DNA from: Odiellus spinosus
Taxonomy: Eukaryota > Arthropoda > Arachnida > Opiliones > Phalangiidae
NCBI GenBank assembly: GCA_963920705.1
Contig: OY987238.1
Coordinates: forward strand, 14,874,183 to 14,938,182
Direction: 5' to 3'
DNA length: 64,000 nt
Under the pieces are notes generated by a model. It saw only the letters and a program-made list of their open reading frames with translations. It did no database searches and was not told the DNA's origin. Both the position numbers and the translations under genes were made by a program. Of the stretch, positions 9,792 through 63,200 are shown piece by piece (the first letter of the stretch is position 1; every line of letters begins with the position of its first letter).

Positions 9792-11331
9792 TGTGTGTGT
9801 GTGTATTTGTGAACACAGTGAACTTAGTGAACATAGTGAACATCGCGTAGCAAATTTGAAGTTTTGCGTGTTTTGTGTTCGTGATTCTGTTAGTTGTTTT
9901 CACAGCCATGAATTCTATGAATTCCCTATTAATTTTTATCCTAGTTTGAAACGCAAAAATTTATTTATAATTTTTGAACTATAAATTTATTATCTAAAAA
10001 AAAATTATAAATTTATGAAAAAACCTAATTTAATTTTTTTTAATATACATTCATGAATTTATTAATTTTAATTAATTCCAGTTTTTTTTTTTTTTAATTA
10101 GGCAAGTTATTTCTATATAAATTCTACGAATAAGCTATGAATTTATTTATTTTAATGACGTGACGTCATATGAAAACTGAATTTATTATTAAGATCATGG
10201 ATAAATTATAATTAATTTTTAACGCGTAATGACGTCATCACGTTTTCGTTAATGAGTTTTTGAAACATCAAAACGAAAAATCGTCTGCTAACGCGCGCGA
10301 CGTCTTGTTTTGTGACGTAACGTGTTCCGATTATGGAGAGAACTCTTGTTAGGAATGCCATGATGTACCTTCCACTTGGACAAGAGTTTTAAAATCACTT
10401 TAACTTATTATTTATAATTAATTTATCCAGCGCTAATATTTAAGTTAAATATTAACTTTAATTTAATTAATCAGTCATAAATTGCCAAATCGTGTTGTTT
10501 TTTTGTTTTTTTTTTTTATTCACAGGTATTAAAAATATTTACATTTACTAAATTTCCTACCTTTTTTTTTTTTTTTTTTTTCAAAACTGGTTTATCCAAA
10601 CCATTTTCTTGATTTTTTTCAAATCAAAGCGGAAGTTATGGCGGACTAATACTTAAGGTAAAATCTGATTGGGGATTGAAGTAGCTCTTTGAGACCTGTC
10701 TGGAACGGACAAGTACACTCTATTGATAAGATATACCAAGAAAAATTGCGGGGAAAAGAATTTTTGGGGAATAGTGTAAGTCAAACGAAGGTTTCATTAG
10801 TTTCAAAGCCAAACCTCGAATTTATATTACCAAGAACTTATTTATGAAGTTAAGAACGTGTAATGATAATTCCGAGTGAACTTGGGAACATCTCTAGATG
10901 GCTTTGCCCTCGAATAAACTTGAAATAAGAATCAATCTAAGTTTGCAACGATTATTATCATATGGAGTAGGAATACAGATACATTATGTCTTATTAAAAC
11001 CGATCTAATTTATGAAAATTCCGATTTAAAGAAATAAATTCCGTATTTTCAATCGTTCGTATACGCGCGAAATCTTTCCCAAACTACTTTTACATCTATG
11101 AAGTATTATATTAAGTATCAATGCTCTCCTGTTTCTATCGTATTGTAACTGTAATCGCGAACAAAAATAACCTCCGTCTTCTATATTTCAACAAACATTC
11201 GTAAGGAAAAATCTGATGAGATAAGACATATTTTTTATTAGCTCGATCAAAAATGATTTAGTATAATATTATTACCAAATAAATAATTAGGTTTTTTTAG
11301 TTATAATAGTTAAAAATAATTAACTAGGATC
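9792..11331. other. Intergenic, AT-rich, no gene seen
   Basis: This follows the stop of the secreted-protein gene, with a GTGTGTGT run at about 9791-9804 and long poly(T) runs near 10081-10095 and 10560-10581. Two TGACGTCA palindromes lie at 10161-10168 and 10230-10237. The open frame at 9793-9984 is low complexity and not called. The promoter of FAAH2-B should lie at the right end, but no motif stands out. Confidence 0.6.
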
Positions 11332-39200: not shown

Positions 39201-42200
39201 CTTTCCTTTCATTTGTCTCTTGATTAAAACGACTAGATTGAAGACTTAGAGGCAATAGTCCTGTTTTCTATGTAAGAACCTTCAATACTGGTCATTGATG
39301 TCATTGTCATGCCCAAATTTACATACGACGAGAGGTCTGTAATAGCTCGTTCGTAAATGCCCGTCGTTAGTCCGACGTAAACTTTATTCGTTATACCGCT
39401 GGACTAATGACGGTGAAATGTTATTTTCCAGACACTGTAGGCTTAATTAAACTTCATCTTGCAATTTAAATACAATGGTTATAGTGTTTTGGTTTCGAAT
39501 TGCTAACTTAGCCAACTGTAGACTCAATTCCATCGGTTTTATCCCCCCTCCCACGGGTTCTAGTGTTAGTTACTCAACTTATTGGCAAGCTAAACCTTAT
39601 CATAGTTTATTTACTAAAGCAGAAATATGGCGCTAAATCATTTCGAGTGCCGGAAATTATACCACGATACGAGCAACCAATTGGGATAGATACGCGACTC
39701 CGACGTTTATGATCAAGGTTTAAGTGTACGGGTTGGAACTAGTGTGCCAGTGAGTCCGGTATAAAAAAGCAGCGCGTGCCGTGACGTTACTATAACCGAG
39801 GGACGCGTTGTTTTCCCGCCAAAATCGAGTTCTACTTGAATGCCGTATTGGCTGGCTCGGTGGGCGCGCGCGACGGTTCCCATTGGCGTCCAGCAGCCGA
39901 GAGCGGTGGCTGGCGCGCGCGATCGATCGGTCGTCGCGAGACTACCATTTACGGATAAAAGCGGGGTAACTCGTTTCGGGCCACCCTCTTAGCTCCGGCC
40001 GTGCACGCGCCGCTCTCTTTACCGCCATACTCCGACCAACAGCTAGCGCCTATAGCTAGAGCTCCGCCGCGCCGGTGTTGGGCTAAGGCCCGCTCTTAAC
40101 GTTTTCCCCTCTCGTTTAATTCGGCCGCCATGGCTAGAATCCCGACACTGACCTAAACGGAGATTTTAATCGGGCTACTGACCTTAAAAATCTACTCCCA
40201 AGGTTGTGCGGTATCGAGGGGCAATGCGCCAACTTTTCTTCCCCCTACGCCAAGGTAAGAGATTTGCGAATTAAACTTTACCTCGGCTCGCCTTGCCATC
40301 GAATATACCTTTAAACCTCCTTCCCCTCGGCTTCCGCGCTAAAATACGCTCTTTCCCGGTTCTCCGGGACTCCGCAATTACCGTATTTGATACGACACGT
40401 TATACCTACCGCTAGCAAAGTGTTTTATTTTCGTGTTAGTGCCACTGCCTTTTTTCCTGGCGTTTATTTAGCGCGTCTTAGTATTTGGCGTTAACCCAAG
40501 TGATCGAAATATATAGGGCCACACTGCAATTTTATTACCCGGCTTTCCCTGGTTCGATTTTAACAGTTCAATAACCTTACCCTTCCCAGTCAAGTCTAGT
40601 TCTTATTCTCTATATCTTTTTATATTTACCTCAATTCCTGACTTGTTTTTGTTCAATTTAAATTAATTTAAACGCCAATTCATATAAAGATTATTTTATA
40701 CCATATAAGTATTGTTTTATAGTTAACATCGATGTTAGGTTAGGTTTTGTTTAATCCCAATCTTGTGTTTATAAAAATATACAATTTTACCTGTCGATAA
40801 TTGTTATTATACTCAATAGCGTATAAATATCAATTTTCTAGAATCAGAGGCAAACTAGTTCTTGTTTAATATCTGTCCCTTTTTAATCTGATCAGATCTC
40901 TCGTGTTTAAAAATATATATAATTTTACCTGTCGATAATTGTTATTATACTCAATAGCGTATAAATATCAATTTTCTAGAATCAGAGGCAAACTAGTTCT
41001 TGTTTAATATCTGTCCCTTTTTAATCTGATCAGATCTCTCGTGTTTAAAAATACAATTTTACCTGTCGATAATTGTTATTATACTCAATAGCGTATAAAT
41101 ATCAATTTTCTAGAATCAGTGGCAAACTAGTTCTTGTTTAATATCTGTCCCTTTTTAATCTGATCAAATGGGTGTCAATTATACATTAGTAAATATTAAA
41201 TATTACTAATTTTAACAAATTGTAAGCCGAAACTAATGTCTTACTAAGTATTCTAAGTGTATAGTGCTCCTCCTAGCGGTTAAATTATTTATTATTTAAG
41301 CCGGCTCATTCTGGCGTTCATTCGCTCGCGTCAGCGAAGCGTTTGTTTAATTATTCGGTTTATGCTTAGGACTTTACCTGTCTTAAAATTATCTGGTCTA
41401 GAAACGATCTGTTTTAACTTATTTATAATTAAGTTTAATTATTTCTTAGCTCTTTTTTTTTCTCCAAAAACCTTGTTTATTGCTTTTACCGATTTCCCAC
41501 AAAATCCAAATTATCTGAAACGATTTAAATTATTTTTTAAACATAAACGGTGTAATAGAGAAATTTATTCTGACTCAATCTGTCACGTGATAGCTCTCGC
41601 GCTGTCTCTTTCGTAAAAGTACTTAATCTTGGAAGTTATCTTTAATTTTAAACTTGATGCTAATCAAAAAATACAAAAATTGGTGACACTATCCCTTGAG
41701 AGTTACGAAATGAATCATTTACGGATGACCCCTTAACGTACATTAATGATAAAATACGCTAAATTATTTAGCTGGTTTTTTTTAAAAGCACGCGTTTGAT
41801 AAAATTTTGAATTTTGCATTGAGTATATTAATGTACGTTAAGGGGTCATCCATACATGATTCATTTCGTATTTCTTAAACGGCGCCCCGTACGATAAAAC
41901 GTCATAGAACATTTTCGTCTTAAAATGACCCATAGAACCCACTGTAGCTTGATCCTACCACCATTTTAGAACACACCCTGTATATATAAAAATATAAAGA
42001 TAAAATAGTGCAACTATCACTTTAAGAAACTATTCGCTCAAATATTTCTGAATTCCAAGAAAACGAAAAAATTAGCTAACAAGGAATCTGGAATAAAAAA
42101 ATATTGATTGCAGGGGGTCGGATAACCCTCACCATTAATAAATATTCAAAACGAAACAGCGCGGGAAAAGTTTTTAACGGCTGGAAGTCGTGAAAATATT

Positions 42201-45200
42201 GAGATCTCCCCTCATCTTAAAGTCAGGTTGAAACCGATATTTTAAATCTATATATACCACCAATAAAAGCATCTTCGAATTATTATAAGTTAATTAGATT
42301 TTTGAAAAATATATTTTTATTAATAACAAAACCTGGCTTTCATAAGCGCACTCTAACGGCAAACAGTGTGAGCAAAGTAAGAACTATCAAAACCACATCA
42401 ATTATTTATCACGTGGTTTTACATACACTATTTGCCGTTAGAGGACGATTATGAACGCCAGGTTTTGTTATATATTTTTATCTATTAGGATAGATGTCTA
42501 TTATTATTAAAGCCAGAAGCCGATGAAACCCTCCTTTGAAGTCCACTACTCCAATGTTCGATATAGCGCTCCTCTCTGTATGGGTAAAATTCCCAATTTT
42601 ACGAATTAGAAGGGGTCCTACTTCATCCCCCCTGTCTACCGAAAATTGGAAATTCTCTCTCTCCACAAACGACGACGTTTTTTTGACGAACTCCGAGGCT
42701 GCTAGAGATATTCGCTCGACGAACTCCCGCTCCGAAAACATCTACCGTTAGGAGGCGTACGAATCGCGCCTTTTGAAAATAACCCATACAGAGAGGGGTA
42801 GACAAGACCCGGGAGTAATAGACTTCAAAGGAGGGTTTCATCGGCTTCTGTTAAAGCTTCTAAAATTTTATTAGAAACTTTGCGTTGTTGTTAACATATG
42901 AATTATTTCAAGTAAAAGGAAAATATAATGGACAAGGTTTAGTTAGTAAGACGCGTTTCCTGTTAACCCGACCTTTAAAAACTCGACATATCTCTTTTAC
43001 TTTCGCCCAGCTTAATGAGTTGGGTTTTTACACCATCACCACCACCAAATATGCAGTTTGCGTTAAAAAAAACTTTTCTTCCAATACCTGTTTGGTGAAA
43101 GTTAAGCCATTACACTATACGGATTCCTCTTTAAGCTATAGATAGGGCTAAAATGAAATGTATATTGGAATTTCAGACGACACGCGATGATTTCTTGGAT
43201 TTGGTAAAGAACATATACTTGGAATTCTTTACGCGTGACCCCTTTGATAACGAGCCACTAAAATTTACTTTGGTACGCTTTGTAGGGATCCACCACAATT
43301 AACTGTAGGTGGAATTCATTTTCGATGGTGTATGTTACCTGTCAGGGTTGCCACAGGTCAGGGAAAAGTCAGGGAATTTGAAAATGAACCAAAAATGGAA
43401 TTTTAAGGTATTTTCGGGTATTTTAAAAAGTCAGGGAATTTAAAGATCTTTCAAGAAGCCAGGAAATTACAATCATTATCCGCTGTTAAGATTCTCAGCT
43501 GACGGCGTGTCAGATACGCAGCTGCAGTTTGGCCAACGCGATTATATAAAACAATAAAAGGTTAAAAATTGTGTAGTATTAGCCGAAACTTTCAGGGAAA
43601 ATCGTTGGAAAAGGTCAGGGAAAAACCTGGAAAAGTGTCGGTCAAGCACAAGACCATTGTTAATATCCAAAATTATTTAGAAAAAACAAATTGGTGACAT
43701 CACCACTTTAATATTAATGGTAATATTTTTGGCTTGGTCTATCCCCCTTCGATATCAGGTCGGTGACATCAACCCCTAGGGGCGGGAACGTTTCATATTT
43801 CCTTCCTCAGCGCTGTCACGGTTCTATCATAGTATGGTATCCATCTATATCGATATTTTTAATTGATTTGGGAAAAACTGGTTTTCAATTTATTCGTTGT
43901 GGCTTAATATAAATTTCAAATCTCCTAAAAAACTCTTAATTTTTATATTTCATCACACCTTTAAAATTATATCTAATAATTAGTAACTAGTTTGGTATAA
44001 TTTTTTTCTGGTAAAAATTAAATATGATAATCTTGTCAGTTTTAATATTCTTCATCATTAATAACACGAAACTAAATAGAGTTTATGATAAATGAACTTA
44101 TTCACCCCTTTGACCTTTTCCCCCCCAAAATATTACGAGCTTATTAAAGGGAAGATGAAACCAAAATTTTAAAAGTTATTTCAATGAACATTTTTCGCAA
44201 TTATTACCTTTATAAATTATTTAAATTGAAATTTGAATTTTAATAAATATAAATTCGGACCAATCATATTATTTCAGCCTTCAACAGCGCTTGTAATGTC
44301 TTAGCGCTTGTGTTTGATGGCCAAGGTCTTAGGCATCAAATATTGACCTATTTTTTTCAATGTTATTACATTACAAGCGCTAGCAAGGATTCGTGGAGAG
44401 TTTTGATACGTCGTTTCTTGTTAATACTATACTTTTGAATAGTTGAAACATGTTATAATAATTTAATATTATTTTTGGACTGTTGCCAGGAAAAATAATT
44501 TTTGAATTTGTCGAATTTTTTTTTTTAAACTCTCTCCGTTTTATTTAAACGTTATAAAACTGTTGTCTTTGATTTTGAAACAAGTTGGGTAGTACATTCT
44601 ATAACGTATATTGGTCACGTGACGCAATTTGACCTATTAAAGGGCTAGAGACTTAATTTTATTAGTAAATATTTTTTATTAAAATTATTTCACTGCTAAC
44701 AGATACAGAAAATCTCCCTGAATGTTAATTACTATAAAATCATTTAAACCAATCAAAACCACTGGTTTTATGGAGTTTGATTCGGTAGTCTCCTCCCAAT
44801 GACGTCACTAAAGTAGTTATTTTTAAATCATATTTAGGCTTAACGCGCCGCTATGTTTTTAACCCTTGTTAGGTCTAACTCTTATTAATAAATATCTACC
44901 ACGCGCTGATATAGCTGTACAGGTTTCCTAATGACGTCATTAGAATTTCGCTGCCGATTTAATTATGAAACTATTGTCCATTTAATTTTTTCGATTACAA
45001 AAAAAATATGTTCCTAACCCTTTAATTTTTCTCCTTTATAAAGACCCGTGACCTTTAACCTTAAGGGAAAAACTTTAGCCTCGTGTCATCGTTTGAGTTT
45101 TCCCAAACACCTTTGCACCCTTTTCAATAATGCTTTTAAGGTCGTAGCTACGTTAGAGTCCTAAGTCAATTGTCTTAGAGCTAATAGAGTCAAAAGTTAC

Positions 45201-48200
45201 CGTAAAGAAATAATCGTACCGTACTTTCTTAATATTGTTTCTAAATGAATGAACGAACGGAGCGCCTGTTCTCGAAAAGTGTCGTAATATAGTCTTAAAC
45301 GAGGCGGAGTAATTAACAATGTTATAACCATATAGGGATTGAAAATAGTTCAGGCGGAATATTGATGAATAATAAAGTTCGCGCGCGCTATTAAATTACG
45401 TTAGCGCGAGGCAGCGACGGGATATTTATTCGACGAATTTCAATCAACGCTATCGTAGCTTAGTGTCTGTGAAATTCCTTACCTTTATTTCCCCTTCTCG
45501 TAGCTTAACTTCGTTACTTATAATAAGTAGAACGTAAAATAAAGGGAAAATCAACTTGAAATTGCAGCGAAGTTAAAGGCTTCAATCTATTTGAATAAAT
45601 TGAATCGCGGATGGTGGATAAGCTTTTTACTTGTTGAAACTAGCAGGTGGTTCAAATTATAGGCTTATGCGGAAACAGAACGGCTCTGTACAAAATCGAC
45701 GCGCGATGCTTATTTCCGGTATAATACTAGCTTTTCATTCGTTCACGGAACTGTTGATTTTTGCCGCTTAAGTAAGAGAATTATAGGTAAAATTGAATAC
45801 ATGTATTGTCATATGAAAAATTGCCGCATATTATTCTTAATTATTCTAAACATTTTGTTCAATTCATCTAAATTACTCTTAGTAATATTCAATATAAATT
45901 TTTCTTAGTAAGTCCCAATTAATCTAAATTCTTAATTAATCTAAATTATTCCTAATAATTCTCAATTAATTTAAATTATTTCTAATAATTCTCAATTTAA
46001 ATTATTTCTAATAATTCTGAACAAATTTAAATTATTTCTAATAATTCTCAATTAATTTAAATTATTTCTAATAATTCTGAACAAATTTAAATTATTTCTA
46101 ATAATTCTCAATTAATTTAAATTATTCATAGTAATTAATTTAAATTATTCATAGTAATTAATTTAAATTATTCATAGTAATTAATTTAAATTATTTCTAA
46201 TAATTCTCAATTAATTTAAATTATTCATAGTAATTAATTTAAATTATTTCTAATAATTCTCAATTAATTTTAATTATTCCTAATAATTCTCAATTAATTT
46301 TAATTATTCCTAATAATTCTCAATTAATTTTAATTATTCCTAATAATTCTCAATTAATTTTAATTATTCCTAATAATTCTCCATTAATTTTAATTATTCC
46401 TAATAATTCTCCATTAATTTTAATTATTCCTAATAATTCTCCATTAATTTTAATTATTCCTAATAATTCTCCATTAATTTTAATTATTCCTAATAATTCT
46501 CCATTAATTTTAATTATTCCTAATAATTCTCAAATAATTTTAATTATTCCTAATAATTCTCAATTAATTTAAATTATTCCTAATAATTCTCAATTAATTT
46601 AAATTATTCCTAATAATTCTCAATTAATTTTAATTATTCCTAGTAATTCTCAATTAATTTTAATTATTCCTAGTAATTCTCAATTAATTTTCATTATTCC
46701 TAATAATTCTCAATTAATTTTAATTATTCTTAATAATTCTCAATTAATTTTAATTATTCCTAATGATTCTCAATTAATTTTCATTATTCCTAATAATTTT
46801 CAATTAATTTTAATTATTCTTAATAATATTCTAAACAATCATTTCTAATTTTCTTATTTAATATTCAATTATTACTCCATTTTTAATTTTTTATTCTACT
46901 CGCTGGGAAGAATTGTGACAGTCACTTGTTCTACGTGACTAATCGAGTTACTATAGCCTTATATTCTGAGAAATTAGATTGGTAAAAATCAATCAATTGT
47001 TCTAACCAGAACGCCTTTTTACCTCATAATATAATAAAGATTATATAAGGCACGAAACGTAACAAAAATATGGGATTTTTTTTATTTCGTTGAGTCACAG
47101 AAAAGGGAAAAAAGCTTACGTGTTATGATCATTAGGTTGGTTCATGATGGGCGTTCTTGTACGATAATATCAAAGAGTTATTTGCGAGCCGACAGGGTTG
47201 CCACAGGTCAGGGGATTTGAAAATGAACCAAAAAAGTCGGGGAATTTTAAGATATTTTAAAAAGTCAGGAAATTTCAAAATCTTTCGAGAAGCTTCCAGT
47301 AAATTGCAATCACTATCTGCTGTTAAGATTCTCAGCTGACGAAGTGTCAGTTGTATAGGTTAGAACAAAGATACGCAGCTGCAGTTTGGCCAACGCGATT
47401 ATATAAAACAATAAAATTGGGTAGTATTAGCTGAAAGGTCAGGGAAAAAACTGGAAAAGTCTGGGAATTTGAATCTGAAGAAACTGTGCCAACCCTGTTT
47501 TATTTTTTTTTTTATTTTTTTTGTAGATTTAAAAAGCTATTTTGCAAATTTTGCGCCTTTGGCTTGCCTTTTTTTATCATTGAGTATAAAGGTTTATTAA
47601 TATACGTTAAGGGGTCATCCGTACATGATTCATTTCGTGTTTCTGTCACGGCGCCCCGTACGACAAAACGTCATGCCCATTCTGTAACTGGGTCCTACCT
47701 CCATTTTCGAAACACTCTGTATATTATAGTTACCTGGTATAACTCGCGTATTTTTTTGGGTTGGAAAAACCTCGGGGAAAGTCCCGCTCTCGAAATCCAA
47801 TCTCGAAAGTAACAAGGACCATAAGAAATAATGATGACTGTATTTACGCGTTCGACAAAATTGATACAATACGAATATAACTTACGCGGATTGATACGCG
47901 GTGTTAAACCTTCGTAGCGAATGGAAAAGTAGTTCATATAAAACATTACGGACGAAAAATTGCCCTTACTATGTTTTGCAAATGATTTCCAGCATATTTA
48001 GCAAAACGGGCTTTACCATAACGTATAACTTAAGCATATTCTCCTATTACGGGTTATGGTATAGTTTTGTCAGTCCTGGGTTCAGTCCTGGGTTCAGTCC
48101 TGGGTTCAGTCCTGGGTTCAGTCCTGGGTTCGGTCCTGGGTTCGGTCCTGGGTTCGGTCCTGGGTTCGGTCCTGGGTTCGGTCCTGGGTTCGGTCCTGGG

Positions 48201-51200
48201 TTCGGTCCTGGGTTCGGTCCTGGGTTCGGTCCTGGGTTCGGTCCTGGGTTCAGTCCTGGGTTCAGTCCTGGGTTCAGTCCTGGGTTCAGTCCTGGGTTCA
48301 GTCCTGGGTTCAGTCCTGGGTTCAGTCCTGGGTTCAGTCCTGGGTTCAGTCCTGGGTTCAGTCCTGGGTTCAGTCCTCGTTTTAGTCCTGGGTTCAGTCC
48401 TGGGTTCAGTCCTCGTTTTAGTCCTGGGTTCAGTCCTGGGTTCAGTCCTCGTTTCAGTCCTGGGTTCAGTCCTGGGTTCAGTCCTCGTTTCAGTCCTGGG
48501 TTCAGTCCTCGTTTCAGTCCTGGGTTCAGTCCTCGTTTCAGTCCTGGGTTCAGTCCTCGTTTCAGTCCTGGGTTCAGTCCTCGTTTCAGTCCTGGGTTCA
48601 GTCCTCGTTTCAGTCCTGGGTTCAGTCCTCGTTTCAGTCCTGGGTTCAGTCCTCGTTTTAGTCCTGGGTTCAGTCCTCGTTTTAGTCCTGGGTTCAGTCC
48701 TCGTTTTAGTCCTGGGTTCAGTCCTCGTTTTAGTCCTGGGTTCAGTCCTCGTTTTAGTCCTGGGTTCAGTCCTCGTTTTAGTCCTGGGTTCAGTCCTCGT
48801 TTTAGTCCTGGGTTCAGTCCTCGTTTTAGTCCTGGGTTCAGTCCTCGTTTTAGTCCTGGGTTCAGTCCTCGTTTTAAAAAAACCAGTCATACTCAATGAT
48901 CAAATAAGCTTAAATAAAATTAAGCTTATTTTAGCATTGAGTATACGTTTATTATTGTACGATAAGGGGTCATCCGTAAATGAATCATTTCGTAACTCTT
49001 TAACGGCGCCCCGTACGACAAAACGTCATAGAAGATTTTCGTCTTAAAATGACCCATAGAACCCACTGGAGCTCGGTCCTACCACCATTTTCGAAACACC
49101 CTGTATATAATTATTATTAATTTTATTTATTACGTTCTTATTATTAATTTTATTACGTTATAATTATTTCGAGCAAATTCTTTACACTTCAACACAAAGC
49201 TGACAAATTTTTGAATATTTACATTTAATAGGATAAAAAATCCAAAAAAAAAACCCACAGGCCTTCGAACAAAAAAAATTTTAAAGTTCAAAGCTGCTAA
49301 TCATAATTCTTTGTGGGAGGGGGGGGGGTGATTTATTTCTCTCATGGATGTCTTGAGAGACTTGGCCAAGAATGAAATTTGCCTTATTAAAAATCTTTCT
49401 AAGAAGTTCCTTTTAGTCACTATGAAGTTTCGATATAAGGTATCATTACGCGCCGGCTTTGTTCTATTACGAATACTCCGCTTGAACGATCGAGTACAGG
49501 TCTAGAAATAATTTTTCTTTGGCAAAGAAGGCGTCAAAAAGCCAATACGTTAAAAGTCACGTTCGCCTATCTCGAGTTCCAAACGCCTCCTCGGAGGCCC
49601 GACGTATACTTCAAAGTTACGCCACTTTGGCAGCTCTTACGAGTTAGAAATAAAACAGACGTCGGATTTCTTGTTTAGTATCAAAAGTAAATTATTCTAA
49701 ATCTAAAAGTATTACGGATTTTTATTTGAAAGTGATAATTCAAGCCTTATAGTTTAATACCAGTAAAAGTACGCGATAAATTTAAAACTTACTTTGAAAA
49801 TAGGCTTAGCTGGATTCGTAGAGATATTTGAATTTCTAAGCGTTAAAGAGTCATCGACCAATGAGCAGGCTCCGTCGTTAAGGCGAGATCTAGACAAAAC
49901 TTCCTATAATATTTGATTGGTCAATGACACTTCAATTCGAAGGAATGTGGTTAAATCTTGATCAAAGCGAAGAAATTCGGCTAAGCCTTGATCAAAGCGA
50001 AGAAATTCGGCTAAGCCTTGATCAAAGCGAAGAAATTCGGCTAAGCCTTGATCAACGCGTAGAAATTCGGCTAATCCTTGATCAAAACGAAGAAATTCGG
50101 CTAAGCCTTGATCAAAGCGAAGAAATTCGGCTAAGCCTTGATCAAAGCGAAGAAATTCGGCTAATCCTTGATCAAAACGAAGAAATTCGGCTAAGCCTTG
50201 ATCAAAGCGAAGAAATTCGGCTAAGCCTTGATCAAAAGCGAAGAAATTCGGCTAAGCCTTGATCAAAAGCGAAGAAATTCGGCTAAGCCTTGATCAAAAG
50301 CGAAGAAATTCGGCTAAGCCTTGATCAAAAGCGAAGAAATTCGGCTAAGCCTTGATCAAAAGCGAAGAAATTCGGCTAAGCCTTGATCAAAAGCGAAGAA
50401 ATTCGGCTAAGCCTTGATCAAAAGCGAAGAAATTCGGCTAAGCCTTGATCAAAGCGAAGAAATTCGGCTAAGCCTTGATCAAAGCGAAGAAATTCGGCTA
50501 AGCCTTGATCAAAGCGAAGAAATTCGGCTAAGCCTTGATCAAAGCGAAGAAATTCGGCTAAGCCTTGATCAAAGCGAAGAAATTCGGCTAAGCCTTGATC
50601 AAAGCGAAGAAATTCGGCTAAGCCTTGATCAAAGCGAAGAAATTCGGCTAAGCCTTGATCAAAGCGAAGAAATTCGGCTAAGCCTTGATCAAAGCGAAGA
50701 AATTCGGCTAAGCCTTGATCAAAGCGAAGAAATTCGGCTAAGCCTTGATCAAAGCGAAGAAATTCGGCTAAGCCTTGATCAAAGCGAAGAAATTTGGCTG
50801 ATATCCATGAATCTAGCTAAGCCTAATTTCCAGATTTTAAATTTATTTCTATTATTTTAATATTTGTTTATTTAAATTGAAATATTAATATTTAAAACTA
50901 GGGTGTATTAATACATAATGTAAACTAATATAGGGACATAAAATAGTACATTTAAACCTAAGCTCAAACAAATTCTCGTATGGAAATTTGGGCGAATATT
51001 TATGAAACTATTTTGAATAAGTAAACATAATTTTTTTTTTTTTTTTTTTTCTTATTTACTGAAATAGAAGCAATTTAGTTTGAAAGGAATTGAAGCTTTA
51101 CTAACTCTTTATTAACATATTTTTCCCTTTCTTTTCCTTCGTTGCTTCAAATTCAAAGAATAGACTGACTTCATTCCCTCACTCTGAACTTTATTATTAT

Positions 51201-51234
<34 letters not shown>

Positions 51235-54200
51235 AAGATTTTTGGCCTTATGAAGCCTTTTTTTCCCGCGTTGTTTATTAAATATGACAAGATATGACTT
51301 GAAATATACGAGCAACACTCTTTACTTTAGTAAGATTTTGCCAAAAGACTTCGAAAAACCTCAAAGAAAAGGGATGGTTGATTTTTTTCTGAAAATACAG
51401 CTCTTCTAATATAACTTATACAAAACGCAATATGGTGCCAATATGTCCTATAGATTGTACTAACGCCTGACTTATAGTTAGTGTCAAAACTTCGACAACA
51501 ACGGCTAGCAAACTCTTTTTTTAATAAGATTAATAAGATGATAATCTTAAAGCTCGGAATCGGTATCATTTTTATTAATTGGATAAAATCTACTAAATTC
51601 TGACGTATATTATCCGTTTCATTAAAACACAGATTATTTTTAATTCGTGTTAACTTATTCCAAGATAAAGTAAAAAAACGTAATCCATATCCGTTTTTAT
51701 CGAAAAATGGCCGCCTTATCTTCGAATATTATCCATCGCGTTATAAGTTCGGATAAAAATTTAATTCAAAATTTATTTTCCCTGAAAAATAACGAATAAA
51801 AAAGATGATTTAAAATCTTATCGTTTTATTTCTATTCTTCGAATTAAAAGTCAATTTGAAATATTGTCTCTTATATTTTAGACTAATTCTGGAAACGCCA
51901 ATGTTTCTTATCCGTCGTTATACGTTTGAATACGAGTAATTTGTAGATAGATAAAGCGGCCAAGGCTTATCTTCGTGTAAACCTTATAACAATTATACGA
52001 ATATAGAAATTTCATTGTTTTAGTTACGAACAATTTATCCGAAAATATCTGAAAATATCCGAATAACGGAAGATAATGGATCGATCCGATTCCGAGCTCT
52101 AGATGAACTGAATTAACTTTGTTTTTTTATTAACTCGCAAGAAGTTAATTATTTAAATTAAACGTAATTAACTGTAGGATCTACAAATAGTCCCCCGACC
52201 ATAGTGATGACGTAGACGGGCAATTTTTATTTTATAAATTATACAAATATATATTTTTACCGTCGTTGTAATTTTGTTCTATGACATATGTGTATATATT
52301 TTGAATCGTTTTTTAACGATCAACCCGAAAATATCACTCAATCTCTATTTGGAGTTCATAAAATAACCTTTAACCCTCAAAATATCAAGTTATACCAAGT
52401 TAATTATTTTTTTTTTTTTAAGATTTTGAGGCTTAGTGTTCGTTTGTTTCTCAGGGTGTGTTGCTGTATTTTTCTGGACTCTTGGTCGCCATTCATTAGA
52501 GTTCGGCACGCGAAAAAAATGAGGGGAAATATCAGCCCAAGTTCATTTCGATTACGCGCCTTGAATTTTTGATATGATATCCCGGTTAAGCTCACTCCGC
52601 GCTGACTAGGAGAAAGAACACTCTTTGTAATACATTAAATCCACCCGCGCAAAACTTAATACATGGATATGAGACCCTAATGTTTACATAAGCGAATCGA
52701 AAACTTCACGGAGGCCCTTTCGAATTTAAAGGAAAAGTCTCATACCTTTAAAGGGAGACTGCAACCTAACAAGTGTTTTTTTTTTATCGATTTCTTAATC
52801 GTTTAAATATCAGCCTAATCCACCGATAAAAAGTTTAAAAAACAAATATTAAACTAGAAATAAATTTAATACTTAACATCAAAGTTCAAAAATGCAGTTT
52901 CGTTGGTGTTGCTATTCCAGGGTTACCACGGGTCAGGGAAAAGTCAGGGAATTTGAAAATGAACCAAAAAAGTCCGGTAATTTTAAGATATTTTAAAAGG
53001 TCAGGGAATTTAAAGATCTTTCAAGAAGCCAGCCAGGAAATTGCAATCATTATCCGCTGTTAAGATTCTCAGCTGACCTTGCAGTCAGTTGTATAGATTA
53101 GAACAAAGATACGCCCGCAGTTTAGCCAACGCGATTATATAAAACAATAAAAGGTTAAAAATTGTGTAGTATTAGCTGAAAGGTCAGGGAAAAACCTGGA
53201 AAAGTCAGGGAATTTGAATCTGAAAAAACTGTGGCAATTAACCCTGCTTTGTTATGGTCTTGACTATCTTGTTTATATTTTTGGGAAGTCTTTCGAGTAC
53301 GAACTTTTCAGCCCAGTTTATGTACAAGACCTTTAATCATTATGCGCCAAAATCAAAATATTAGTGCGTGTTAAAAAAAAATGTTATTGGAAATTGGTGA
53401 CTATATTTTGATTCTACACTTGTTCGGAGAATTGAATTTCGATATAGGACCTCCAGAATTACAAAACGTGTTTTTAAAGTGATTCTATCACAAGTTGAAC
53501 AATATTATTTTATACTTTTAATATTATAATATTGAAAATTGTACACCTTTTGTTAAATTTTAAATATTTTCCGAGAACGTAAAAGCTTGAAGTTTAAGTT
53601 TCGACTTGTTTCCCGATATTATATATTGTATATAATTAGCCAACCATCATTTATAAGCTTGCAAATTCCCAGGTACTTACTCGGTTGCAATGCCAAGAAA
53701 TCTGGGTAAAAAATATTCCCTTTTAATGTTTTTTTTTATCCTGGGTGCCACTGCCCTGTAAATGATCGATTTTAGCCCCCCCCCCCCTATTTGGATTTTT
53801 TTTTTTTTTTTTTTTGTATAAGGGCTAGCGACCAATCCACTTTTTGCACGTGCCTAGTCCCGGCCAAATCCGCGCGCTTTCAAATCTTTAAAGAGCAAGT
53901 CGCGTGTTTTATTAAAAGCGCGCGAAATTTAGATATAAAATGGCGGGAAATCTAGATATAAAATGGCGGGAAATCTTATTGGTATAAGAAATGGCGGGAA
54001 ATGTTATGGGTATGAGGAATGGCGGGAAATGTTATGAGTTTAAGAATTACCGGGAAATATTAGTGGTCTTTAAATGGCGGGAAATATTATTTGTATAAAA
54101 TGGCGGGAAATATTATTGGTATAAGAAATGGCGGGAAATCTTATTGGTATAAGAAATGGCGGGAAATCTTATTGGTATAAGAAATGGCGGGAAATCTTAT

Positions 54201-57200
54201 TGGTATAAGAAATGGCGGGAAATCTTATTGGTATAAGAAATGGCGGGAAATATTATTTGTATAAAATTGGCGGGAAATATTATTTGTATAAAATTGGCGG
54301 GAAATCTTATTTGTATAAAATTGGCGGGAAATCTTATTGGTTTAAGAAATGGCGGGAAATATTATTTGTATAAAATTGGCGGGAAATGTTAGTATTCTTT
54401 AAGACTTCCCCTTGTGTTCGGGGGAGGGGGGGCTAGGTTATCCCCTCGTCGTTCTTGTTCCGGGGGCTCAATCCCTTCAGCTCGAGTTGGGTCCTGTGGG
54501 TTGGAGGCTGGGGAAGATATCTGTTCTTATTGCGTATATGGGTTGGATCGATGATCCGAGCACAGTCTCTTTTTCTTTTTTGCAAAGCCCGGCGTTCGTT
54601 TTATACTCCGATTTACACCAGACACGCTCACGTGACTGGAATACCCTTCTAATGACGTAGCGAGATTCTATATTTCCGTTCGTACTCTCGTAACCAGCTC
54701 CCCCCTCCAAAAAAAAACAAAAAAAAAAGGTTTGGTTTTGGTGCACATTACCATTATGGATTAAATATTTTAGAAAACTTTTATAACACGTGGAGATATC
54801 AGAGTTTAGCTTGATCTCGCGAATTTCATAGTTAACGAGAAAAACGCGGGAATCTTAAGCCTAATTTGAAACTTGTATATCACTGTCATAACAAAATTCG
54901 CGTTTCTCGCTACGTGATTGGACAGATACTTTAGATATCAGTGGACTCGTGTTAAGCCTACTTTCATTGTAAATTAAACAAATGATTTGTAGCTTATTTC
55001 TTTGTAATTTTATAAAACTACAAGATTATCCAAGAGTGGAAAAAAATATATTATCATTATTATTGAAAATAAACCCTGTAAGTTCGGCTTTTCCGCGGAA
55101 GAGTTTGCTCGGCAGGTAGAACACATTTACAGGCGTCAGATAGAAAATACATTAATACCTTTTACTCTGTAAGTTAGGCTTTTACACGTACGCGATTTGT
55201 CTTGACGTTAATTATGCCTATTATTTAAAGGGAGGGTGAAACGAAAACTTTTTTAAATTAATTTTTTTTTTCTAAAAATAAAACGCTTTTGAGAAAATTA
55301 ATGTTTTTCGCGTACTCAACAGTTACAACCTTAGAATGGGCATAATTTCACGTATTTTCTATACAGTTATAGGTATATTTAAGCTCGTATATGTCTATAA
55401 TAATCCATACATATTTATTTTCAACTGGAAACCTCAAAAAGCCATAATCTTAAACAGTTTCTCACGGATACACGGAGCTTTTTCGCGCCTTTTTCTAGAA
55501 AGATCATAACAGGCGTATATAAGGTAGAAATCATTCTGGCGAATGAGGTCAAAGTAGGAAGCAAATTGCGCCAAAACAGACTAGAGGTAGAGAGAGAGAG
55601 AGAGGTGGTTCTGTGGACGCGTGCTTCGATAGATAAGCTTTAAGTCGCCGTTTCAGGACCCGTTCTACACGCGGGAGCGTTTACAAACGACCATACCAAC
55701 CAAAACTATATTTATTATCAGAAGTAAATAAACCCTAAGCCTTTAGAAAGTAACGAAACCATGTTCTAATCTTCCTAAATTCTTAATCGGTCTACAGTGA
55801 GAACATATAGGAAACAGTTTGCGTGTTAATAAATTTTTTGGGCAATTTATGTATAGAATAACCTCTTAACCTTTCCAATATGGTTAAAAAATGTATTTGT
55901 AGTGTGAACGTGTAGACAGCTTTGTATAAAACCACTAGTAAACATGTAAGATGACTTAACTCGCATCAGACAACTTTGTCGTTGTTAAAGGGAAAACCTC
56001 ACGATGATATTCGTGGTTTTTTTAAAACTTAACATCAAAATAGGCTTAGCTGGATTCATGGAGATATCCTGATATTTCCCGTATAAGGACTAGCAACCAA
56101 TGACATTGATCAATGGCTCTTATATGTCACTAGTCCACGAATACAGCCAAGAAGGATCAGATAAGGAGAGGAAAAGTGGGAACGGCGCGGCTCCTAGTGC
56201 GTCGGCCTAAACTCCCACTCTGGGAGAACGGGGGACAGACGGGGGTAGAGATGCTTCGTGGTAAATTGTTGTCACGTGGGTAAAACGAATCCTTTAAGAG
56301 ACGCGCTAGCTAGCGACCACGTGACAACAGTTTACCTCGAGAATTTCCTATCCCCCCTTTCCACCCGAGTGGGAGGTTGGCTCTTCTCTCTCTAACTCAA
56401 CGCAGCCCCACTTTTCCTCTCCTTATCTGATCCTTCTTGATACAGCTAAGACTATTTTTCGTGTAAATTTTAAATTTATTTCTAGTTTAATATTTTTTTC
56501 TAATTTTATTACTGTTGGATTTATTTTTAAAATGCGTTGAATTCTTTATAATTCCGCGAGACTTGATCTTTAGTATGGTCAGCCAATAATGGTATTTTTG
56601 TATTCCTCTGCTGGGAGAATAAGCTTATATTATGGGATGGGTTTTTAGTGGTCACGAGTAAGGGACTCCATAAATCCCAATATAAGACTTTGTATCGCTA
56701 AACGGGTCAGTGAACATACTTTTTTTCTCGCTCCGTTGACATCAGGGACGAGAGACGGTCCCAATGCTAGCTAGGACCTGTCACTACAAATTCCGATCAT
56801 AGACAACGCCAAAATTCAATAGAGAATAAAGCTCATTTATGAACAAATACTTGTTGAACGTTATCTATGACACGAACAATTAATATCTAAAAATTATACA
56901 ATTTATTTTATCTTGAAAATCAAAGAAAAAAGATCAAATATTTCGTGGAAATATTTAAACGGTGATTAATTTAGAAATCCAGGGTTGCCACGGGTCAGGG
57001 AAAAGTCAGGGAATTTGAAAATGAATCGAAAAAGTCAAGGGAATTTTAAGATATTTTAAAAAGTCAGGGAATTTAAAGATCTTTCAAGAAGCCAGGAAAT
57101 TGCGATCATTATCCGCTGTTAAGATTCTCAGCTGACCTTGCAGTCAGTTGTATAGATTAGAACAAAGATACGCCTGCAGTTTGGCCAACGCGATTATATA

Positions 57201-60200
57201 AAACAATAAAAGGTTAAATATTGTGTAGTATTAGCCGAAACGGTCAGGGAAAATCGTTGGAAAAGGTCAGGGAAAAACCTGGAAAAGTCAGGGAATTTCG
57301 ATCTGAAAAAACTGTACCAACCCTGATATATTTAAAACTAGAATAATTAAATTATGTTAATAATTAATTAAACTTAAATTCTGAACATCATCATCATTGT
57401 ACTATTATCTTGGGATGGATTAGAAATTGGGTTTTCTCCCGAGACGAAGCGAAAAAAAAAAACAGATATTGAGTCGATCTAAGAAGATTACTTACGGTTG
57501 AGAAGTAAGAAGTACTTGTGACAGAGGGAGAAGGGGTCATAGGTCATTCTTCAAGACCTAAACCAAGCTAGTATTACAGAAGTGTCACTTCTCCAAATCG
57601 CGTTTGATTGTCGTTTCCAAACAAAAAAGGGTCTGTATAAGGGAATACAGACATTAATTTAATAAGAGCTTAAAATTTTATCTCCTGATAATTCTTATCC
57701 ATTTGAAATAATTTCCGAAAAAAGCTTATTTATCAATGGATAAGTTATTCATTATCTAGGGTTCGTACACTGGAAAAGTCAGGGAATTTGGAAATTGGCC
57801 CAAAAAGTCGGGGAATTTGGAAAGTGGCTCTAAATGTCAGGGAAAAGTCAGGGAATTTGAAAATTCCTCCAATAGGTCAGGGAAAAGTCAGGGAATTGGA
57901 AAATTCCTCCAATAGGTCAGGGAAAAGTCAGGGAATTTGGAAACTCCTCCAATAGGTCAGGGAAAAGTCAGGGAATTTGAAAAGTGACCCCAAAGGTCAG
58001 GGAAAAGTCAGGGAATTTGGAAAGTGGCCCAAAAGTCAGGGAATTTGGAAAGTGGCCCAAAAGTCAGGGAATTTGGAAAGTGGCCCAAAAGTCAGGGAAT
58101 TTGGAAAGTGGCTCTAAATGTCAGGGAATTGTCAGGGAATTTGCTAATTGGCCCAAATGGTCAGAGAAAATAAATATTTTGGTACCAGTGTCAAGGAACT
58201 GGTTATGATTGGTTGACCAATCAGTTGTAACGTAATTATTATCAACTGAAAATATTTGCCTAAAGATTCAAATTGTTTCTCATATTCCGAGTAAACTATC
58301 GGCTGACCCCGATGTCAAATAAAATGCGGGAATTGCCAGCGGCTCAAGCTCGTAAGAATATATTCGTGAAAAAAGTATTAAAATTGGTCAGGGAAATTAT
58401 TTAGAAATGGTCAGGGAAATTATTTGGAAATGGTCAGGGAAATTATTTGGAAATGGTCAGGGAAATCCTGGAAAAGTCAGGGAAATTAACTTCCAAAATT
58501 TTGTACGAACCCTGATTATCCGATTCAGAGCTAAAGAAGAATTTTTTGAATTTTTCTAACAAACTTAATATTATTTTATGCTTGTATTATATTGTATTGA
58601 CTTTTTTTTTTTGGCCAACCACAAAATTTCAAATAAAACCGCGCATGCGCGTAAAGGATAAAAATAGGCCCAGGGAATTCGTAGAAAGCAACCATTTTTG
58701 ATGGGAGGTTTTCTGAATTGAGATTTTTGAAGGGATTTCAAGTTTATCCCATTTTATCCGACTTTCTCTAGACAATAAATAAATACCTACTCTACCTTAA
58801 GACTTATAAGGCTTAAACAAGGTCCCTGCCTTTAATAGCGTTAACTCTGGCTTATCGAATATTGTTATTTCGCATCATGCAAATTATTATGGGGGAAATA
58901 TAGAGGTCGGAAATTCGAAGGATCCTCTTGTGTCTGTCTCTTAAAGATGTTGTTTAAATGCAAATAAGGGAATTGGGGGGAAATAAGTTTATTTTCAACC
59001 TAAGAGTGTAGCGCTATTAAAGCTATCATTCTATGCTTTTTATATTCGATGTTAAAAGTATTGTACTTATGTTATTTCTTTGGTAAATTCTCGCGTTGTA
59101 AAATTGAGAGAAAACCTAGGTTCTAGTTTTGTTTATTTAACAACCTAAGAGTGTAGCGCTATTTAAGGTATGATCCAACGTTTTTATATTAGCCTTGAAA
59201 AGTATCCGTTTTAGCTTCTTTCTTTGGTTAATTTTTAAGTTGTAAAGTTGGGTTAAAATCTTAAATGATGAATCTTGCCGATTCATTCCATTTTTGTTTA
59301 TTTATCAATCTAAGATTGGAGCTCTATTTAAACTACGATCAAAGCTTTTTAAATTATATTTGAATACCATTGTATTATAGTTTAATTATTTGCTAAGGTT
59401 TTTTCGCTGTAAACTGGATTTGAACCCATTCATCAGGGTTTTTTTTTTTTTTTTTTAAATATTGTTTAAGTACCTAGATAATGGAAAACGTTCCTTAGAA
59501 ATGAGTAACCGTTAGAAAACTTTCCTTAGAATTGGGTAACCGATTAAATATTGTCCTTAGCAAGGAGTAACAGATAGAAAATTGTCCTTAGAAATGAGTG
59601 AGCCATAGAAAACTGTCCTTAGAAATGAGTAACTGATAGAAAACTTTCCTTAGAAATGAGTAACCGTTAGAAAACTTTCCTTAGAAATGAGTAACCGTTA
59701 GAAAACTTTCCTTAGAAATGAGTAACCGTTAGAAAACTTTCCTTAGAAATGAGTAACCGTCAGAAAACTGTCCTTAGAAATGAGTAACCGATAGAAAACT
59801 TTCCTTAGAATGGAGTAACCGTTAGAAAACTTTCCTTAGAAATGAGTAACCGATAGAAAACTGTCCTTAGAAATGAGTAACCGATAGAAAACTGTCCTTA
59901 GAAATGAGTAACCGATAGAAAACTGTCCTTAGAAATGAGTAACCGATAGAAAACTGTCCTTAGAAATGAGTAACCGATAGAAAACTGTCCTTAGAAATGA
60001 GTAACCGATAGAAAACTGTCCTTAGAAATGAGTAACCGATAGAAAACTGTCCTTAGAAAGGAAAAATATCTAAGATATACTGAATGCAGTTGCAGTCGTA
60101 GAGTAAAAAATTCACATGTTGCTTACTTTCCTTGATTTCGAACAATACATTAATAATAATATTCGCCAAATTAACGCCTAACGCCTAACAACTTCTAACC

Positions 60201-63200
60201 AATGTATTCTGTATTCTATCAAAGTAAAAAATTAACTAAACTTAACCTAATAGTTAAGCAAACTCAGTTTGAACCCTAGATTTTTTTTTCCCCAACGATA
60301 CACTATGAAAGTGGTGTGGAATTTCTGTAGAGAAATATCTTGTAAGGATAAGACGAGCGAAGTTAGTAGGGATTCCTAGGATTATTGCGTAAGGCGGGCC
60401 AATTTAATATCTCGAATTCCAGGCCATATATTATATTTCCTCCAATGTTATATACACGTTTTGAACTTGGTATCTCATATTATCCAACCAAGAATTCATT
60501 CAGGTTCCATAAGAATATGGGAGGGCCGCGATTCAATAACCATCCTCCCAAACTTTGTAGCGAAAGTTCGTCCGCTTCGAATCGATTTTTCAAGTAAATC
60601 GCTCCTGACATAATATTATTAACCCGCATCACTAACGACCTTGACGTAATATTTTGGGTAATAAAAATGGAGCCGCGACCGAAAAAAGATCTAAGCGTAC
60701 AAATGTTGCGAAAATTGCGGACGAACTTTTGTTACAAAGTTTGGGAGGATGGTACCAGAGGCTAAAGCTACGCTCCCATATTCTTATGGAACCTGAATGG
60801 ATTCTTGATCCAACCAGAAGTAGATGAAACCCTCCTTTGAAGTCTACTACTCTAATGTTCGATATAGCGCTCCTCTCTGTATGGGTAAAATTCCCAATTT
60901 TACGAGATCGGAGGGGTCCTACTTCATCCCCCCTGTCTACGGAAAATTGGAAATTCTCTCTCTCCACAAACGACGACGTTTTTTTGACGAACTCCGAGGC
61001 TGCTAGAGATATTCGCTGGACGAGCTCCCGCTCCGAAAATATCTACCGTTAGGAGGCGTACGAATCGCGCTTTTTGAAACTAGCCCATACAGAGAGGGGT
61101 AGACAAGACCCGGGAGTAATAGACTTCAAAGGAGGGTTTCATCGGCTTCTGATCCAACTCAAAGGAATATGTATGTGTTTTCTCAGAAGTAAATAATTTA
61201 GGAGAATAAGGTAGACACTGCGCCGAGTCTGTCTAGAGTTTTAAAATTATCTTTCTGTTATAAATTGGTAATCCATAAAATTACTGTAATTTAGATTTAT
61301 TTTTTAACAACAATCAATTTTTTATTTCATTTTTAGCACTTTTTAAGCGAGCATGATCGTAAAAGCTCTCATTTAAAGAAGCTGCAAGCGGCTATCAACC
61401 AAAGACGAGCGGAACAAGAAGAAAACGAAGAGGAACGGCAAAAACAAACGGCGCTGCAAAGCTGCGGTAAGTTTAAAATCAAATCTTCTTACTTCCGCGC
61501 AAGACAGGGTGTGTTTCGAAAATGGTGGTAGGACCGAGCTCCAATGGGTTCTATGGGTCATTTTAAGACGAAAATCTTCTATGACGTTTTGTCGTACGGG
61601 TCGCCGTTTTAGAGTTACGAAATGAATCATTTACGGATGACCCCTTAACGTACATTAGTAAACGTATACCAGAAGCCGATGAAACCCTCCTTTGAAGTCT
61701 ACTACTCCAATGTTCCATATAGCGATCCTCTCTGTATGGGTAAAATTTCCAATTTTACGAGTTAGAAGGGGTCCTACTTCATCCCCCCTGTCTACGGAAA
61801 ATTGGAAATTCTCTCTCTCCACAAACGACGACGTTTTTTGGACGAACTCCGAGGCTGCTAGAGATATTCGCTCGACGAGCTCCCGCTCCGAAAACATCTA
61901 CCGTTAGGAGGCGTACGGATCGCGCCTTTTGAGAATAACCCATACAGAGAGGGGTAGACTAGACCCGGGAGTAATAGACTTCAAAGGAGGGTTTCATAGG
62001 CTTCTGCGTATACTCAATGATAAAATACGGTGAATTATCTAGAAGCAGGGGGGTGTTCGGAATTAGAATCGTTCGTTCAGAATTAGAAGTCGCTACTGCC
62101 GTCATTAAAACCGCGTCCGTGTCAAAAGTACGCGTCATGGAATGATGAAAACAAGCGTAACGGGTCCCCAACTATTCAAACTTGATATTAGATAGTTAAC
62201 TTCGGCCGTAAAAATTCTATAGCTACGTCAGATTTCTTAAAAAGTATTCAGAGTTAGGCGACTCTACCCTAGATCAATTTCTAACGTTATTGAATTCTTA
62301 TTATTTTCCTTATCTTAGGAAAACAGTACGATTCACACTATTTCATAGAAATAATATTTTCTTTTTAGTTTTTGTGTAAGATATTTTTTATATAACATTA
62401 ACACAAAGGCTTAGAGGTCTAGAAAAAAAAAGCTTTGAATGCCACTAGCATCGTGTTATTCACCTTCCCGCCTTTGAACCGTATTACATTACGATAAGCG
62501 TGTGAACTAGTATTGAACCTATAAGAAAAAAAAACTTTGCTTTCCCAGATAAATATATTTATAAATCGGACAAGAGATTTGGGCTTCATTTGGTGTTTTT
62601 TCTTCCATTGTTGTGTCCCAGTTAGGGTCTCAGTTTTTTTGGAGTTAGCGATCCCAGTCTCTAGATATTTATTTGGACTCCCATAGAGTCCCTTGGCAAT
62701 CCCCACAGTCCTACATTTCTATTGTATTCCACGTCGAGACCCTGCAAAAAAGCGGCCACGATCTAAGATTCCTTCAAAGAGTGGGTGAAATACATTTTAT
62801 ACAAAGAGACAGTAACACGATTCACATTGAATTAAATCCAAAACTCTAATATTTATTGTACTTGGGACACTTAAAGAGAGACAGGAAACTATTGAAATGA
62901 GTGTAGTATGGTATAAAAAGCATCTTTAAAAAATTTCACTTAAAAATATCCAACCGTTTTCATCTAAAGACGATTTGGAATTCCTACCTTTTCGAAGGAA
63001 TCTGAAATTCAAAGGAAATTGAAGTGTAAAATTTTCCCGCCATTTTGATCTCGAGACGGAGTTTTAAGTTTTATCATTCGAGTGAAAAAGCGCGCGAATT
63101 TCCGCGCGCGCAATTTTTTTTCATTCATTTTTACAAAAGCGCGGGAAAAATCTCGCGATAGTTCTTTTTTTTTCCTTTCGATGGCGCCACTTGTAGGGAT

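Follow-up and report, generated by a model that had tools for sequence, protein, structure and literature searches.

Abundant short inverted-repeat elements with 7-bp target duplications in Odiellus spinosus very probably belong to the P superfamily

A 64,000-nucleotide stretch of Odiellus spinosus DNA (contig OY987238.1, positions 14,874,183 to 14,938,182; the whole stretch is termed the window below) contains five short insertions, which belong to three families of miniature inverted-repeat transposable elements (MITEs), here called A, B and C. Their interiors are unrelated and each is flanked by a duplicated target of 7 bp: which transposase moves them? We find that A, B and C are very likely non-autonomous P-superfamily MITEs of the cut-and-paste type, and that coding P elements of the same genome make duplications of the same length. 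The insertions and their target duplications, located by direct reading and with a script, are as follows:

42507..42513, no strand: left target duplication TTAAAGC, right copy at 42851-42857
42514..42850, plus strand: family A MITE, 337 bp, ends CAGAAGCCGATGAAACCC
56141..56147, no strand: left target duplication ATACAGC, right copy at 56440-56446
56148..56439, plus strand: family B MITE, 292 bp, perfect 33-bp inverted repeat CAAGAAGGATCAGATAAGG...
60482..60488, no strand: target duplication ATCCAAC, first of three copies, the others at 60808-60814 and 61152-61158
60489..60807, plus strand: family C MITE, 319 bp, 35-bp inverted repeat CAAGAATYCATTCAGG..., mismatch at position 8
60815..61151, plus strand: family A MITE, 337 bp, adjoining C, duplication common to both
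61663..61669, no strand: left target duplication CGTATAC, right copy at 62007-62013
61670..62006, plus strand: family A MITE, 337 bp, duplication CGTATAC

Each of the five insertions lies between exact direct repeats of 7 bp, and its inverted ends are near-perfect. An earlier sequence-only reading of the window had claimed perfect 7-bp repeats on all five, which both direct reading and script confirm; four of the starts it gave stand, and the last is 61670 rather than 61671. The A copy at 42514..42850 has a 39-bp inverted repeat with two mismatches and, within its positions 55-72, an inner block repeated inward, CCTCTCTGTATGGGT; the C copy has a second repeated block within positions 51-91; and B is over its whole length an imperfect palindrome with self-inverse matches of 67-69%. 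When the window was scanned for pairs of identical 6-bp ends of CARRAR type bordered by direct repeats of at least 7 bp, the five insertions were recovered together with one AT-rich pair (41674-42304) whose ends match at 10 of 20 positions only. The same end scan of 20 mononucleotide-shuffled windows gave no structures.

These families are abundant in the assembly, which was searched over its 443 Mb and 286 contigs. Exact-end patterns were found at 9910 + 9996 sites for A, 2389 + 2360 for C and 1823 + 1813 for B; half of each sum, used as an approximation of copy number, suggests about 10,000, 2,400 and 1,800 copies, respectively. The 95 copies with both flanks readable are a non-random sample. 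For A, 40 of 999 first-look candidates were scored and 30 of these supply most of the copies; for C, 20 of the 40 scored out of 1561 do so; for B, all 28 first-look candidates were used, though its end pattern implies some 1,800 copies. Copies met by chance in other loci are included; loci L009 and L039, which repeat window copies, and 54 truncated, edge-cut or self-inverse BLAST rows are omitted. The duplication is exactly 7 bp in 78 of these 95 (A 35/43, B 24/30, C 19/22) and exactly 8 bp in one (A 0, B 1, C 0); 6 of the 17 that are not exact at 7 bp fail by one base. Tabulating flank lengths, as the sequence-only reading had proposed, upholds 7 bp as the prevailing length in these copies. 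A wider scan of the window and the fetched loci, with inverted ends matching at 12 or more of 14 positions, exact direct repeats and six duplicate or tandem-repeat loci omitted, recovered 62 structures with 7-bp repeats (57 of them starting CAGA or CAAG), as against 25 at 5 bp, 35 at 6, 12 at 8 and 6 at 9. These loci were mostly fetched as A or B copies, so that the families had to appear, but the preference for 7 bp did not. All three families are real MITEs with a true 7-bp duplication.

A duplication of 7 or 8 bp is characteristic of the P superfamily, and the same genome is rich in P transposases: a profile search with PF21787, the P-type RNase-H N domain, gave at least 150 matches (150 scored of 386 candidates). 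Domains of the P transposase are found in other elements of the genome and in the parent of a further family described below; the three MITE families are themselves short and lack coding sequence. We examined ten P-bearing stretches, seven with long flanks and three (L087-L089) with flanks of 1.5 kb. The protein of one, L091, has THAP, RNase-H N and GTP-binding domains, all over the Pfam cut-offs, and can be aligned with the Drosophila P transposase of known structure, 6p5a (E 3.3e-21). Both ends were located in five of the ten stretches and in one additional element on contig C5:

L090: P element, 5670 bp, duplication GTCTGTC
L091: P element, 3777 bp, duplication TTTGAAG
L095: P element, 5318 bp, duplication GTAGAAT
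L096: P element, 5269 bp, duplication ATTCAAC
L094: P element, 5443 bp, duplication CTCCAAT, ends found without requiring a duplication
C5:2174221-2183163: P element, 8943 bp, duplication GAATAAC

The duplication is 7 bp in all six. Alternatives of 6 and 8 bp, also scanned in the search for ends of L090, L091 and L095, gave weak pairs only (11-12 of 14).

The MITEs and the P elements also resemble each other in their targets. Among 80 MITE sites, compared with 762 mutually overlapping control windows 30-47 bp from the elements, T at position 2 of the duplication with A at position 6 is seen in 40 (77 controls); T and A standing three bases outside the duplication, on its left and right respectively, in 43 (77 controls); and a purine first with a pyrimidine last in 37 (202 controls). 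The MITE sites therefore have a palindromic target which reaches past the duplication, as in the P superfamily. Four of the six P-element sites have the same T2/A6 bias (binomial 0.0013 on the control rate). The sequence-only reading had noted that all target repeats end in C: this is true of the window, but genome-wide it is a tendency, seen in only 35 of 80 sites against 141 of 762 controls.

A comparable picture emerges from the ends. A fourth family, D, was found by structural scan (L027:152-444, duplication ATTTTAC), and A to D all have inverted repeats starting CA along with inner repeated sites, both of which are traits of the P superfamily; none of 500 shuffles gave inner inward repeats as good. 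Tips fitting C(A/T)(A/T)(A/G)(A/G)A are seen in B, C and D and in five of the six P elements: L090, L094 (left end), L095, L096 and the C5 element. Across ten end sets, in which D and its C5 parent are counted separately, C is first in all ten, A second in eight and A sixth in eight. When the ends of A to D and of five P elements are compared past these six bases, between 3 and 10 of 26 positions are the same, close to the 6.5 expected; within A to D the figure is 3 to 9 (A-B 3, A-C 9, B-C 6). As this is about chance, several P lineages are likelier than one enzyme. The ends differ from one P lineage to the next, so the three families probably rely on different lineages rather than on a single transposase.

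Family D offers a direct tie to a coding element. It has 16 + 19 sites at exact ends and 29 + 29 when up to two mismatches are allowed. A D end without a MITE partner, at C5:2183145, is 2.7 kb beyond a match to P transposase, and with two mismatches allowed its counterpart was located at C5:2174221. The element so delimited (ends in L097 and L098, inside in L099) is flanked on both sides by GAATAAC, the eighth base differing. Its right 103 bases are identical to the right end of D and its left end can be aligned with D past a gap, as judged by eye on the letters. Within it lies a PF21787 match at 2180020-2180400, and a 1.4-kb inner piece matches P proteins, best that of L093 (39-61% over four segments). 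These segments are spread over all three frames; hence, the gene of this copy is broken or intron-split. Because D shares both ends with this P element, it is best read as a deletion derivative of it.

An end sequence common with a P element was seen for D and, among the end sites listed, found for none of A, B and C. As no coding partner was found for these three, we infer their membership from the duplication length, the target bias, the mostly similar tips and the parent of D, and on these grounds they very probably belong to the P superfamily. Full-length P elements elsewhere in the genome would make a transposase with a THAP DNA-binding domain and an RNase-H catalytic domain bearing a GTP-binding insertion. 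This enzyme would bind the inverted repeats, and perhaps also the repeated subterminal blocks, excise the MITE and insert it at a target whose two strands are cut 7 bp apart; the 7-bp duplication would then result from repair of the gaps.

Several observations weigh against this assignment. The best described P elements have 8-bp duplications, according to the excerpted account (PMC7776569). No full-length P element with A, B or C ends and a transposase frame, which the sequence-only reading had suggested looking for, was found among the end sites listed, namely those on contig C1 to 17.5 Mb for B and to 15.2 Mb for C, and for A those on the forward strand in the first 1.9 Mb; among the C1 sites listed for B and C, no PF21787 match was seen by eye between paired ends. 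The six P elements with ends are a non-random sample: no ends were found in the examined stretches of L092 and L093, and L087-L089 have the short flanks. The boundary of L094 can be read as 8 bp (CTCCAATC), but the repeats are then misaligned by one base. The tips vary, A (CAGAAG) departing at two bases from the pattern of B, C, D and the P elements and L091 beginning CGGTGC. The inner blocks, in the same end-set analysis, are clear in L091, weak in the C5 element (p 0.012) and in L094 (0.064), and not seen in L090, L095 and L096. The lack of these blocks in three of six P elements and the departing tip of A slightly lowered our confidence, which remains high. Two candidate partners were rejected: a B end near P matches belongs to a B copy beside a P element, and a 7263-bp inverted pair in the window (41718-48980, TTTACGGATGACCC) has as its outside 7-mer part of a repeat recurring near 61.63 kb.

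The sequence-only reading had held that one undescribed or unrecognised transposase mobilises all three families. The common duplication length, the similar tips and the lack of a coding partner among the end sites listed would suit such an enzyme; known P elements explain both the length and the tips, however, and ends that agree only at about chance argue against any single enzyme. With at least 150 P matches, P elements that make 7-bp duplications and D tied to one of them, this proposal is unsupported and we regard it as quite improbable. Two other points of the same reading fared better: P, which it named as the nearest class, is indeed represented by numerous transposases and by six of six elements with 7-bp duplications, and a single class of mobiliser behind the unrelated interiors is probably right. 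The mobiliser is very probably a known superfamily, P, and the three families are unlikely to represent a novel type of transposon.

Other superfamilies can be measured against the same evidence. Dada duplications are 6-7 bp, and a superfamily of this type, considered from that length alone, would equally leave A, B and C without a coding partner among the end sites listed; given that the P elements here match the MITEs in duplication length, target bias and mostly in tips, and that D is tied to a P element, it is an improbable source. The hAT target, nTnnnnAn, is one base longer than the nTnnnAn seen here, which would fit MITEs of hAT type with an 8-bp duplication that had been taken for one of 7; an exact 8 bp in one of the 95 copies, against the 78 with exact 7, renders this extremely improbable. 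The P superfamily accordingly stays the very likely home of A, B and C.

Some insertions adjoin each other and share a duplication: C and A share ATCCAAC in the window, and a B copy and the P element share ATTCAAC in L096. This B copy, at L096:124-1577, is broken near its end by an element with the inverted repeat GGGAGGCTATTCTCTAA, which holds a further B-variant copy with duplication GCCAGAT (partly by eye). Genome-wide, a C end followed after 3-11 bases by an A end was matched 26 times, in 16 cases with a gap of 7 bases. The C end is true in two of these 16, as against 0.11 joints expected at random; 13 are ordinary flanks and one, L113, resembles an A copy inside a C copy. Outer duplications were tested in six of the 16: a right copy follows A in four, that on C3 has neither, and that on C8 has the left copy before C with no right copy seen. 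The two joints fit a reuse of good targets, and no special tandem mechanism is claimed for the shared duplication. The remaining excess at 7 is ordinary flank before the duplication of A and perhaps reflects target preference. In these cases (places on contigs C1 to C18, and L112-L127) ATTCTTG stands directly before the 7-bp duplication of A 13 times without being an element end; the eight other spacings tested yielded 10 matches in total, a hint of a preference that reaches beyond the 13-bp palindrome.

The P elements also show a second frame. Minus-strand frames opposite the transposase and 3' of it are present at L090:5402-6067, L092:5774-7225, L093:5424-6281, L094:5179-6840 and L096:4708-5202, and are mutually similar. 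L095 has a frame at a comparable place with no similarity detected; L088, L089 and L091 carry the comparable region on the same strand as the transposase. When the L092 frame was used as a protein query, 65 matches were obtained. For 42 of them there is a listed P match within 6 kb, in every case on the opposite strand, and 38 of the 42 are on its 3' side; the other 23 have no P match nearby among those listed (150 of 386 candidates scored). A profile built from the five frames shows weak similarity to the usual P C-terminal region (probability 87, E 3.7e-6, 9% identity) and matches no PDB entry at E up to 1; neither the five frames nor that of L095 matched Pfam over the cut-off. A literature search turned up no two-gene P elements, which is weak evidence of absence. 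It is possible, if doubtful, that the MITEs are fed by a P clade whose transposase is split over two convergent genes, one encoding the THAP, RNase-H and GTP-binding domains and the other, in opposite orientation, a C-terminal domain resembling that of P. The parent of D is closest to L093, which has such a layout. P elements with a second, convergent gene could matter more than the assignment of the MITEs.

Elsewhere in the window, several clusters of AAAAGTCAGGGAATTT-type repeats (56980-58500) and a tandem array with a unit of about 31 bp, GAAATGAGTAACCGATAGAAAACTGTCCTTA (59480-60060), were noted by eye, and long open frames at 48034-49044 and 50411-50857 are nearly all short tandem repeats.

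Taken together, these results point to thousands of probable P-superfamily MITE copies in one eukaryote genome and leave little reason to postulate a new transposase class. They also show, step by step, how an orphan MITE can be traced to its superfamily: via the duplication length, the target palindrome and the tip motif, and then the parent element.

Among known systems, 1360/Hoppel makes a duplication of 7 bp. By its description in the excerpts cited, as a P-superfamily element with a palindromic target (PMC4168063), it can be likened to the MITEs reported here. For Galileo, of the P superfamily in Drosophila, 7-bp duplications had already been described in the sources as excerpted (PMC4168063, PMC2775673). 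As in our families, these are 7 bp in most copies and the palindromic target extends beyond the duplication, with the consensus GTANTAC or GTATTAC (PMC4168063, in part), beside which our sites lean towards a purine at the start and a pyrimidine at the end; its inverted repeats, as far as the cited part goes, are long and internally repetitive (PMC3573991), in contrast to the well-matched 33-39 bp of A, B and C. The Drosophila P element, whose transposase L091 matches, has inverted repeats of about 31 bp, internal sites and deletion derivatives in the excerpted account, comparable to those seen here, and differs in its 8-bp duplication as against 7 and in that the MITE copies here number in the thousands (PMC7776569). 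The inner inward repeats of A to D recall its internal binding sites and may, by analogy, be bound likewise (PMC7776569, same excerpt). The zebrafish Pdre2/THAP9 element, in the portions cited, differs in its 13-bp repeats and 8-bp duplication, and is like the elements here in being P-like, in having internally deleted copies and in a repeat that starts CATACC (PMC7776569, PMC10983969).

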